From: Anaerolineales bacterium UBA5069
Lineage (GTDB): Bacteria > Chloroflexota > Anaerolineae > Caldilineales > Caldilineaceae
DNA: 21,123 bases
Assembly (NCBI GenBank): GCA_002415895.1
Contig: DIAV01000290.1
Span: forward strand, 6,457 to 27,579
Direction of reading: 5' to 3'
Shown here piece by piece: positions 10,517 through 13,110 of this stretch (within the stretch, counting starts at the first letter, position 1; each line of letters opens with the position of its first letter). The notes beneath the pieces were generated by a model. It worked only from the letters and a program-made list of their open reading frames with translations, had not been told where the DNA came from and did not search any database. The translations under genes and the position numbers were made by a program.

Positions 10517-12133
10517 GTGGAGAACACAGGGAGTGCAGTGCCGATGCTTGTCATTGCGGCGGAATCGCTGCTCAAGTTTGTCTATATGGCGGGGGCCATA
10601 TCCGTTGCACTTTATGGCCTGAACGCGCTCTGGCTTACGCTTGAACTGTGGCGCCGCCCGCGCCCTGCCTACACGCCCCCGCCTGTGCAGAATGAGTGGC
10701 CCCGCGTCACCGTCCAGCTACCCATTTACAACGAGCGCCATGTGGTAACGCGCCTTGTGAATGCCGTGGCCGCGCTCGATTACCCCCATAACAAACTGCA
10801 AATCCAACTGCTGGACGACTCCGACGATGACACGCGTGCCCTTGCCGATGGCGTCGCCGCGGCCTGGCGAGCGCGCGGCGTAAACATCAGCGTCGTGCGG
10901 CGCCCCGAGCGCACCGGCTACAAGGCAGGCGCGCTTGCCTACGCGATGGACGATGCAACCGGGGACTTTATTGCCATCTTCGACGCCGACTTCCTGCCCA
11001 CGCCCGATTTCCTGCGCCGCGTGCTGCCCTCGTTCCTGGCGGCTGGCAGCGGCGATGTGGCCTTTGTGCAGGCGCGCTGGGATCACGTCAACCGCAACTA
11101 TTCGCCACTCACCCGCTGCCAGGCGCTCGCGCTGGACGGCCATTTTGGCGTGGAGCAACCTGCCCGCAGTGCGGCAGGCTACGCCTTTGGCTTCAATGGG
11201 TCTGCGGGTGTCTGGCGGCGCGCCGCAATTGAAGACCCTGCCGTGGGTGGTTGGAGCGCCGACACCCTCTGCGAGGACCTTGACCTTGCCTACCGCGCCC
11301 AACTTGCCGGCTGGCGCGGGGCCTTTGTTGATCAAGTGGCGGCGCCCGCCGAGGTGCCGCCGCAGCTGATTGCCTTCAAGCGCCAGCAAGCGCGCTGGGC
11401 CAAAGGCTCGGTGCAAACGCTGCGCAAGCTGGGGGGCCGCGTCTGGCGCTCGCCATGGTCGCTCACCAAACGCATTGCCGCACTGGCGCATTTGGGCAAC
11501 TATCTCATTCATCCCATGCTGCTCCTCTTGCTGCTGGTCACGGTGCCCATTGTGTGGCTCAATGTTCCCGTCCCTGCGCCGCTGGCCGCGCTGAGCTTTA
11601 CCTCGCTGGGGCCGCCGCTTCTCTACGCCTTTGCACAGCGGCGGCTGCACGCCGACGCGTGGCTGCCCAACTTTCTGGCGCTCCCCTTACTCATGCTCTT
11701 TGGCATGGGGCTGGCCCTGGGTAATTCAATTGCCGTGTGGCACGGGTTGCGCAGTACGGGCGGCAGCTTTGCGCGCACACCCAAGTTCCACGTGCAGGCC
11801 AGCGCCGACGAGTGGCGCCAAAGCAGCTATAGACTGCCTATCTCGCGCGAGACACTGCTGGAGGCGCTGCTTGCTCTCTATGCTGGGGCAGGCGTGGTGG
11901 GTGCGGTATACTGGGGCAACTTGTGGGCTGCCGCGTTTTTATCGCTCTTTGCGCTTGGCTTTACCCTCATGTTTGGTATCGAAGTGTGGCAGAGCCGCGG
12001 GCCCGCAATGCAACCCAGCCCCGCCACAGGCACGCGCAGCGCAGCGCCGCCCCGTCCCGCAACCCAGCAACGCGCGCGCCAAGGCGCGCCGGCCCAGCGA
12101 CCCGAGGCCAACGAGCGCGGCATAGGGGATTGA
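10517..12133 (+). CDS. Membrane glycosyltransferase family 2, cellulose-synthase-like
   Basis: The 538-residue processive-type glycosyltransferase has one N-terminal TM helix (residues about 13-40), a cytoplasmic GT-A domain and about four or five C-terminal TM segments (about 320-490). Catalytic landmarks are the VTVQLPIYNE strand, LLDDSDD (99-104), the metal-binding DAD (156-158), the acceptor-site CEDLDLAYR (ED at 253-254) and the Q(Q)xRW motif QQARW (290-294). This set is shared with CslA-type mannan synthases and bacterial beta-glycan synthases. It probably makes a beta-linked exopolysaccharide from a nucleotide sugar at the membrane. The C-terminal tail is disordered and Pro/Ala/Arg rich. 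The GTG start follows GGGGGGAG by four bases; ATG 10544 is the alternative. The sugar is not deducible. Confidence 0.88.
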   Translation: MENTGSAVPMLVIAAESLLKFVYMAGAISVALYGLNALWLTLELWRRPRPAYTPPPVQNEWPRVTVQLPIYNERHVVTRLVNAVAALDYPHNKLQIQLLDDSDDDTRALADGVAAAWRARGVNISVVRRPERTGYKAGALAYAMDDATGDFIAIFDADFLPTPDFLRRVLPSFLAAGSGDVAFVQARWDHVNRNYSPLTRCQALALDGHFGVEQPARSAAGYAFGFNGSAGVWRRAAIEDPAVGGWSADTLCEDLDLAYRAQLAGWRGAFVDQVAAPAEVPPQLIAFKRQQARWAKGSVQTLRKLGGRVWRSPWSLTKRIAALAHLGNYLIHPMLLLLLLVTVPIVWLNVPVPAPLAALSFTSLGPPLLYAFAQRRLHADAWLPNFLALPLLMLFGMGLALGNSIAVWHGLRSTGGSFARTPKFHVQASADEWRQSSYRLPISRETLLEALLALYAGAGVVGAVYWGNLWAAAFLSLFALGFTLMFGIEVWQSRGPAMQPSPATGTRSAAPPRPATQQRARQGAPAQRPEANERGIGD

Positions 12134-12139
12134 CTGAAC

Positions 12140-12229
12140 TGGTTGATTGGTTGATTGGTTGACTGGTTGATTGGTGGACTGGTCATCCAGTCCACCAATC
12201 AACCAGTCAACCAATCAACCAATCAACTA
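12140..12229. repeat. 41-bp perfect hairpin built of 8-bp units
   Basis: Bases 12142-12182 are the exact reverse complement of 12187-12227, with loop TCAT. A G-T and a T-A pair extend the stem outward. The left arm is a tandem array of octamers: GGTTGATT, GGTTGATT, GGTTGACT, GGTTGATT, GGTGGACT. Base composition is much lower in GC than the neighbours. It lies six bases after the glycosyltransferase stop and 40 bases before the next gene. It may block or terminate transcription in both directions, but there is no T-tract. Confidence 0.92.
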
Positions 12230-12269
12230 ATCAACCAGTCCTTCCAGTTACACACCGAATTGAGGGTTG

Positions 12270-12950
12270 ATGAGCCAAAAGTTTTGTACACAATGTGGCG
12301 CGCCGGTGCCGGAGACGGGCAACTTCTGCCCGGCCTGTGGTGCAGCGCGCGCACCGCAACCTGTTGCGGAGCAGCCACGACAAACACAGACGCCTGAGCT
12401 TGCACTCCTGTTGCCGGAGACACTGGATGCGGTGGGTGCATCCGCAAAGCGCTCTTCTCTGGTGCCAGCGTTGCTCCTTGGCGCAGCCCTGCTGATTGGC
12501 GTCGCGGCCTATTTTGCCTTTTTCCGCGCGCAGCCAGGCATTGCGAACGTAGAGGGCTGTGTGGTTGGCCAACCCTGCGCCGACGAAACACCCGCCGATG
12601 TGGACAACGCCGAGGGCATTCCCTACCCGGAAATTGATCGCATTGCCCCGGCCGATGCGAAGGCGCGCTTTGACAGCGGTGACGCCGTCTTTGTGGACGT
12701 ACGCGATGCAGAGTCCTTCGCTGCCGCGCACATTCCCGGCAGCGTTCTCATGCCCCTCAACGAAATTGAAACGCTGGGTGCAGAGTTGCCCATTGCCGGC
12801 GCCATCATCCTCTACTGCACCTGACCGGCCGAAGAATCCAGCGCCCGTGCGGCGCTCTACCTGCAGGAAATGGGCTATACCAACGCTGTGGCGCTCCTGG
12901 GTGGCCTGCGCGCCTGGGCCGATCAGGGCTATCCCATCACAGCCAATTAA
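12270..12950 (+). CDS. Zinc-ribbon/TM/rhodanese protein with in-frame UGA (candidate selenoprotein)
   Basis: With the TGA at 12822-12824 read through, the frame gives 226 residues. A zinc ribbon lies at the N-terminus (Cys6, 9, 20, 23: CTQC and CPAC). After a Pro/Gln linker comes one TM helix (about 63-85, preceded by KR, so N-terminus in), and then a rhodanese domain (about 115-226) predicted outside the membrane. Rhodanese landmarks are AVFVDVRDAESFAAAHIPGS, then ILYCT-[UGA]-PAEESSARAALYL and ALLGGLRAWADQGYP. Many related rhodaneses read YCxCPxE here, so the UGA falls on the second Cys, giving CxU with Cys183. A 6-bp hairpin with loop CGTGC (12840-12856) starts 16 bases after the UGA. Selenocysteine is therefore a good hypothesis. 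Alternatives are a nonsense mutation or a sequencing error (TGC to TGA). If UGA stops translation, the product is 184 residues without the second half of the active loop. Confidence 0.75.
12840..12856 (+). promoter_or_regulatory. Candidate bacterial SECIS hairpin
   Basis: AGCGCC (12840-12845) pairs perfectly with GGCGCT (12851-12856) around the loop CGTGC. The loop begins 22 bases after the UGA, and G is the second loop base. Both agree with the loose bacterial SECIS rules (apical loop about 16-37 bases after the UGA, a G among its first two bases). Such short GC hairpins also occur by chance in GC-rich genes. Confidence 0.5.
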
Positions 12951-13110
12951 CAGTGCCACAATGCAATCCTGCGTCTTGCAAGTAAGCGGCAACGCAACGC
13001 AAAAGTGGAAGAACGTAAAGAACAAGCAACTGCAATAATCACTTTACGCAGTTGCTTGTTCTTTGCGTTGAGTTGTGTTCTCCCGCGCCACCTGCAAAGT
13101 TACAGAAAAG
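12951..13110. other. Spacer before the polA cluster
   Basis: No gene is seen. The spacer is dominated by the long palindrome at 13012-13069. No T-tract terminator for the rhodanese gene was found apart from that palindrome. Confidence 0.6.
13012..13069. repeat. 22-bp palindrome related to the dispersed repeats
   Basis: Bases 13012-13033 pair with 13048-13069 over 22 positions, with one G-T pair, around a 14-base loop. The right arm ends in TTGTTCTTTGCGTT, the block also found at about 20048-20059 and, in part, in the 5354-5457 element. It may terminate the rhodanese transcript. Confidence 0.85.

Follow-up and report, generated by a model that had tools for sequence, protein, structure and literature searches.

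Selenocysteine (Sec) has been catalogued in rhodanese-like proteins of several kinds. In the part of PMC13188914 available to us, a kind with a Cys-x-Sec (CxU) motif is listed as "Rhodanese-like domain-containing protein form 3," which is tied there to the NCBIfam model NF041203 and linked with reference 13 of that paper, Zhang and Gladyshev 2005. The accessible part of PMC9312934 catalogues a CxU protein as "COG0607 form 2," and rhodanese selenoproteins are listed in the accessible parts of the Sargasso Sea and GOS papers (PMC1088965, PMC2398784). Other Sec-rhodaneses in the same portion of PMC13188914 are forms 1, 2 and 4, which carry UxxS or UxxG motifs, and TsoB, a rhodanese/DsbD fusion-like protein with UxxxxU.

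Our analysis concerns a gene at positions 12270-12950 of the window, which is the whole stretch of 21,123 nucleotides that was analysed. Its product is very probably a selenoprotein that combines a zinc ribbon, one transmembrane (TM) helix and a rhodanese domain with a Cys-Thr-Sec pair. The features, numbered along the window, are as follows.

12270..12950, + strand: gene for the zinc ribbon, TM helix and (very probably) selenocysteine rhodanese; 226 aa, stop codon TAA
12262..12266, + strand: Shine-Dalgarno-like GAGGG, 3 bases 5' of the ATG at 12270, judged from sequence
12285..12338, + strand: N-terminal zinc ribbon, CxxC-x10-CxxC, residues 6-23, with PF13240 above its cut-off
12462..12527, + strand: predicted TM helix, residues 65-86 (AlphaFold2 helix; hydropathy peak 2.36)
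12627..12947, + strand: rhodanese domain, residues 120-226, predicted to be extracytoplasmic
12816..12818, + strand: codon for C183, profile-aligned with the Cys of GlpE (1gmx); TGC or TGT in 51/53 homologues, TGA in 2/53
12822..12824, + strand: in-frame TGA, almost certainly the selenocysteine codon (U185); TGA in 53/53 homologues
12840..12856, + strand: SECIS-like hairpin AGCGCC-CGTGC-GGCGCT, with a 5-bp stem (12841-12845 / 12851-12855) and a loop at 12846-12850

The frame from 12270 to 12950 is interrupted only by the TGA at 12822-12824 and is closed by a TAA at 12948-12950. When the TGA is read through, the active-site motif becomes ILYC-T-U-PAEESSARAA. The rhodanese domain PF00581 spans the TGA with 56.7 bits (gathering cut-off 22.2), and the zinc ribbon PF13240 scores 26.6 bits (cut-off 25). 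Thus, both the letters and the domain match bear out the sequence-only reading, which had placed a single TGA in the rhodanese active-site loop of a frame running on to the TAA. AlphaFold2 predicts a single long helix, residues 65-86, between the zinc ribbon and the rhodanese domain; the zinc ribbon is probably cytoplasmic and the rhodanese domain outside.

The read-through protein was used as a query against 396 Anaerolineae genomes (E ≤ 1e-20). This class search produced 53 matches in 47 of the genomes, every one with an in-frame TGA, although at most seven candidates per genome were scored, so weaker Cys forms went uncounted there. The sequence-only reading had proposed an alignment of homologues to see whether this column is Cys or UGA: it is TGA in all 53 matches, and never TAA or TAG. 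Unrelated nonsense mutations in close relatives, which that reading had named as evidence against itself, were not found among the matches. Apart from this TGA, a stop occurs within just two matches (L058 and L080), and it is again TGA, in place of the first Cys of the motif; the residue two before the Sec is Cys in the other 51. These two sequences thus have a double in-frame TGA and UxU instead of CxU in the active-site loop. TGA also serves as the terminal stop in 19 of these 53 genes. Hairpin and codon counts rest on 51 sequences, because in the stretch analysed for them two of the rows repeat others.

Within the family of the window, full-length matches with one TGA are present in 3 of 41 genomes (G000, G742 and G744). 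Both same-family relatives have the CxxC pairs, the hydrophobic stretch, YCTU and identical hairpin letters. When every candidate in the family was scored, non-TGA rhodaneses appeared from E 1e-17; those examined (L258 and L259) are ordinary CRSGNRS rhodaneses. Two other same-family genomes (L260 and L262) contain rhodanese-like frames with a different in-frame TGA, YUNMHHRG or YUNMRHRG, and no CxU. Perhaps these frames represent another Sec-rhodanese form.

The hairpin begins 16 nucleotides past the UGA, and 22 nucleotides separate the TGA from the first G of the loop. As expected of bacterial SECIS elements, it lies directly 3' of the UGA and has a G in its loop. From the TGA onward, the alignment of the 51 distinct sequences is gap-free. 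RNAalifold, run with L050 on the reverse strand, predicts one stem, GCGCC/GGCGC, with the loop CGUGC, and this stem is kept once L050 is corrected. All five stem pairs are formed in 49/51 sequences, the remaining two hairpins lose one or two pairs, and three of the five pairs show changes on both sides. On any of five measures of covariation, 0/500 shuffles reach the observed value, and slid versions of the hairpin pair far less. However, related sequences can outscore shuffles in the tool that was used, so we place more weight on frozen codons and on a compensating swap in L050.

Entropies are 0.14-0.67 bits for codons +6 to +10, counted from the TGA, compared with 1.18-2.12 bits for the codons of conserved L, G and A residues at -12, +13, +17, +26, +27 and +30. 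Codons before the TGA are intermediate (Ile at -6 and -5, 0.50-0.54 bits; Thr at -1, 0.83 bits). In L050, Ser is encoded by TCA (the other 50 have AGC or AGT) and the last Ala by GCT; two pairs are thereby swapped, and both are kept. What preserves the hairpin is constraint on synonymous codons together with compensating changes. By itself, the hairpin of the window folds no better than shuffled sequence (z = 0.54; 134 of 200 shuffles are as stable or more so). We therefore give the single-sequence fold no weight and derive the weight from conservation. Thus, of the earlier proposal of a hairpin at SECIS spacing, the position and the selection on it hold up, but neither stability beyond shuffles nor an Rfam match (searched on 12780-12920) was found.

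Homologues with Cys in place of Sec provide a rough comparison. None of six pairs all five stem positions (each pairs 2-4 of the 5; Fisher p = 8e-7 versus 49/51), with the reservation that these controls are divergent DedA-type proteins with different amino acids at the hairpin codons. They comprise one CxC form (L236) and five sequences from plasmid records; another plasmid record, L238, gave no script match and is left out of the six. Among the other control regions, L235 lacks the second Cys, and neither L233 nor L234 was matched by the script. When a DedA-type Cys form was searched against Chloroflexota, most of the matches were to DedA domains.

The source genome, which is 84% complete and in 412 contigs, contains selA, selB, selC and selD, for all of which the sequence-only reading had recommended a search. 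Its tRNA-Sec scores 68.9 bits against an Rfam gathering score of 47 and is called tRNA-SeC(tca) by ARAGORN. SelA, SelB and SelD score 552, 301 and 322 bits, and SelD has an in-frame TGA of its own, in CAGUASKL. Among the class genomes, tRNA-Sec is present in 44 of the 47 with TGA matches versus 251 of the 349 others (Fisher p = 6e-4). In the three match-carrying genomes where it was not found (G058, G177 and G292), SelA and SelB are present in the first two, and neither was found in G292, which is 70% complete.

The reading that we prefer, with a probability of roughly 70%, is that the gene product is an extracytoplasmic, membrane-anchored thiol/persulfide oxidoreductase with a Cys-Sec pair, and that SelB and tRNA-Sec, aided by the small hairpin, recode its UGA. 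C183 would stand where ordinary rhodaneses have their sulfur-accepting Cys. Two residues further along, in a loop slightly longer than theirs, U185 would most likely be the resolving or electron-donating selenol. C183 would take up sulfane sulfur or be oxidised, after which U185 would attack it; the resulting S-Se bond would then be reduced by a partner thiol system. The substrate, the partner and the direction of the reaction in this scheme are ones that we infer, and our confidence in the assignment of roles to C183 and U185 is evenly balanced.

The roles might instead be exchanged, with U185 as the sulfur-accepting catalytic residue and C183 resolving, which we consider rather unlikely. In a profile of 51 sequences, it is C183 that falls on the catalytic Cys of GlpE, rather than the Sec, and the loop matches YCWGPAC of BH2092 with no gap. 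The AlphaFold2 model agrees in that the active-site loop begins at C183, immediately following a strand, and C183 is Cys or Sec in 53/53 matches. A single-sequence alignment with 6mxv gives the other register, with U185 on its Cys, and exchanged roles would also suit the YUNM frames of L260 and L262, which lack CxU, and the single U in the UxxS or UxxG of other Sec-rhodaneses in the available part of PMC13188914. The Sec had been proposed as the second Cys of a YCxCPxE motif, forming a CxU pair. The pair and its Cys forms stand, but by the profile the catalytic Cys is C183.

To survey the motif more widely, a DNA pattern that specified TGY-x-TGA, one GA and the hairpin codons, and left everything beyond the loop and the start of the helix free, was run on the genome collection. 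It matched at least 119 stretches, and a rhodanese domain is present in all 119 matches listed. By hand count, 80 listed matches come from Chloroflexota (31), Acidobacteriota (30), Deltaproteobacteria (8), Nitrospirota (3), other Proteobacteria (3), Rokubacteria (2), Gemmatimonadota (1), Kofleriaceae (1) and an entry labelled only "bacterium" (1). Among the 119 matches listed, Pfam finds VTT (DedA) in 19 (L140 and L111 tested singly), the PF13240 zinc ribbon in 4 and a guanylate cyclase domain in 2.

Several further fusions were observed. In 10 of the 119 matches listed, the CxU Sec-rhodanese is at the end of a Na/H-exchanger antiporter (PF00999; L104 and L101 tested singly), and L261, from the family of the window, likewise appears to carry it on a Na/H-exchanger-type antiporter, judging by its letters. 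A trypsin-like protease is joined to it in 3 of the 119 (L089:2414-3904 tested singly). In L122:981-1994, the CxU Sec-rhodanese is at the start of the protein, which matches guanylate cyclase weakly (PF00211, 24.7 versus 21.9 bits).

PF13240 is found in 13 of the 51 class proteins, the window protein included, and most of the others have a hydrophobic stretch or a lipoprotein-like start. The combination of zinc ribbon, TM helix and Sec-rhodanese recurs in many genomes. When the 51 rhodanese domains are placed in a tree, those with a zinc ribbon cluster and do not form one clade; six changes are counted, of which the starred branches force at least two, and the bootstrap is not settled.

Another possibility is that the rhodanese domain is not a turnover enzyme, but a sensor or binding domain for an oxidant, metal or oxyanion that passes a signal through the membrane to the zinc ribbon. 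The position of the zinc ribbon on the opposite side of one TM helix would suit such a protein, as would the fusion of the same Sec module to DedA, antiporters and trypsin-like proteases. However, 38/51 class proteins lack a PF13240 zinc ribbon, and most of these resemble plain membrane- or lipid-anchored rhodaneses. Gene context bears on this proposal as well as on the preferred one. The neighbours of some relatives, though not of the window gene, include heavy-metal ATPases, an ArsR regulator, DsbB, SCO1 and a CCG/FAD/Fe-S cluster. These neighbours fit an oxidoreductase role in sulfur, oxidant or metal stress, and the metal ATPases and ArsR would also fit a sensor. Among 14 relatives' loci with a zinc ribbon, 8 lack a metal ATPase in the stretch covered, which in some cases is ended by a contig end. 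Overall, we judge a sensor doubtful, and slightly more so than the exchange of roles.

The preferred role remains that of an extracytoplasmic thiol/persulfide oxidoreductase, which may act under sulfur, oxidant or metal stress. The window gene's own neighbours, which we take to be genes for a glycosyltransferase, polA, argS, serA and EF-G, offer no redox context, and tblastn for six neighbour genes of the relatives found none in the window surroundings and contig ends. The Sec-rhodanese gene is bracketed by two strong hairpins. Between the upstream gene, which ends at 12133, and the Sec-rhodanese gene, positions 12140-12232 form a long, near-perfect inverted repeat of ttgattgg/ttgactgg units (-82 kcal/mol over 12134-12250). 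A second long inverted repeat lies just 3' of the gene at 13012-13069 (-35 kcal/mol over 13000-13070).

Gene callers end these proteins at the TGA. Among 120 listed database proteins, 34 have YCT, YCS or YCA as their last residues, just where a UGA is expected, judging from protein ends only. One of these is P0002, the entry for the window itself, which is predicted to have 184 aa, and at least two others (P0028 and P0036) are named solely as zinc-ribbon proteins. By script, a CxC motif with Cys at the place of Sec is found in 30 of the 120. Three others have a different residue at the Sec column, namely Arg in P0020 (YCTR) and Trp in P0022 and P0024 (YCTW); these may reflect translation with another code or a real substitution.

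The shortened database entry is what a recent nonsense mutation would produce, leaving either a truncated pseudogene or a product that ends before the TGA. This explanation, which the sequence-only reading had called possible but less likely, is rejected as very improbable, because the same codon is TGA, never TAA or TAG, in 53/53 homologues, and conserved rhodanese sequence follows it together with the constrained hairpin. Even less probable, and likewise rejected, is an altered code in which UGA is read as Trp or another residue throughout the organism: such a code would leave the frame open and has Trp at this column of P0022 and P0024 in its favour, but TGA ends 3 of 11 other long window ORFs examined and 19 of the 53 homologues, and the genome has the full Sec machinery. 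The earlier argument from the other genes thus stands where it treats TGA as a normal stop; its second half, that they contain no internal TGA, carries no weight by itself, because ORFs are stop-free by construction. The conservation of the TGA in 53/53 homologues and that of the hairpin favour recoding over nonsense, and the TGA at 12822-12824 is almost certainly a recoded selenocysteine codon.

More broadly, we tentatively propose that Chloroflexota, Acidobacteriota, Deltaproteobacteria, Nitrospirota and other bacteria use the CxU Sec-rhodanese as a portable redox module that depends on selenium. It would be joined to membrane machines (zinc-ribbon anchors, DedA, K+/H+ antiporters and trypsin-like proteases) to read or repair extracytoplasmic sulfur/thiol chemistry, and may have been largely overlooked because annotated proteins stop short at the UGA. 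The antiporter, DedA and protease fusions make the role of selenium in this chemistry testable.

The combination of zinc ribbon, TM helix and extracytoplasmic Sec-rhodanese had been put forward as not known to be described. The CxU Sec-rhodanese itself is already catalogued, in NF041203 and in the available parts of PMC13188914 and PMC9312934, but the zinc-ribbon form is apparently an undescribed architecture of that catalogued, though little-studied, kind. Searches of the open-licence literature, in which absence is weak evidence, found no paper that joins zinc ribbon, rhodanese and selenoprotein. "Zinc ribbon" is absent from the available text of PMC13188914, and PMC12013277 contains none of "rhodan," "sulfurtransferase," "Chloroflex" or "Anaerolin." In the same literature, no paper was found for selenocysteine, rhodanese and DedA or for fusions of Sec-rhodanese to DedA, antiporters or trypsin-like proteases; selenoprotein, rhodanese and antiporter gave only unrelated titles. 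The membrane-anchored zinc-ribbon form is thus an addition to the bacterial selenoprotein catalogue.

Among known systems, NF041203 (rhodanese_LYCAU) is the closest. It has the same CxU loop motif (YCTU in the window), is the NCBIfam model that the window protein matches best (E 6.7e-20) and matches all 51 class proteins scanned. However, the window protein scores 71 bits, below the curated cut-off of 115, and adds a zinc ribbon and TM helix to a model of 126 positions. By interpolation, the cut-off falls at about E 1e-33; the strongest match from the 51 class proteins has E 1e-28, and the controls L097, L123 and L132 score 161-183 bits. Because 11 of the 119 pattern matches listed reach E 1e-33, about the cut-off, and by E-value none of the 51 class proteins does, our data suggest that CxU rhodaneses reach well beyond the curated model.

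The other Sec-rhodaneses, as given in the available part of PMC13188914, likewise carry Sec in a rhodanese-like protein, but their Sec motifs (UxxS, UxxG and that of TsoB) differ; the TsoB model gives the window protein just 16.8 bits. DedA-rhodanese Cys forms (YC-x-CPNE; for example, P0040 and P0044) share the loop, with Cys for Sec, and also join the rhodanese to a membrane domain. They differ in having a Cys codon instead of TGA, no conserved hairpin and a different membrane domain. GlpE (1gmx) and YgaP (5hbo), the latter labelled an inner membrane protein in the PDB, have the same fold as the rhodanese domain of the window, and neither has Sec. The Cys position of GlpE matches C183 by profile, and its active-site loop is two residues shorter than that of the window protein.
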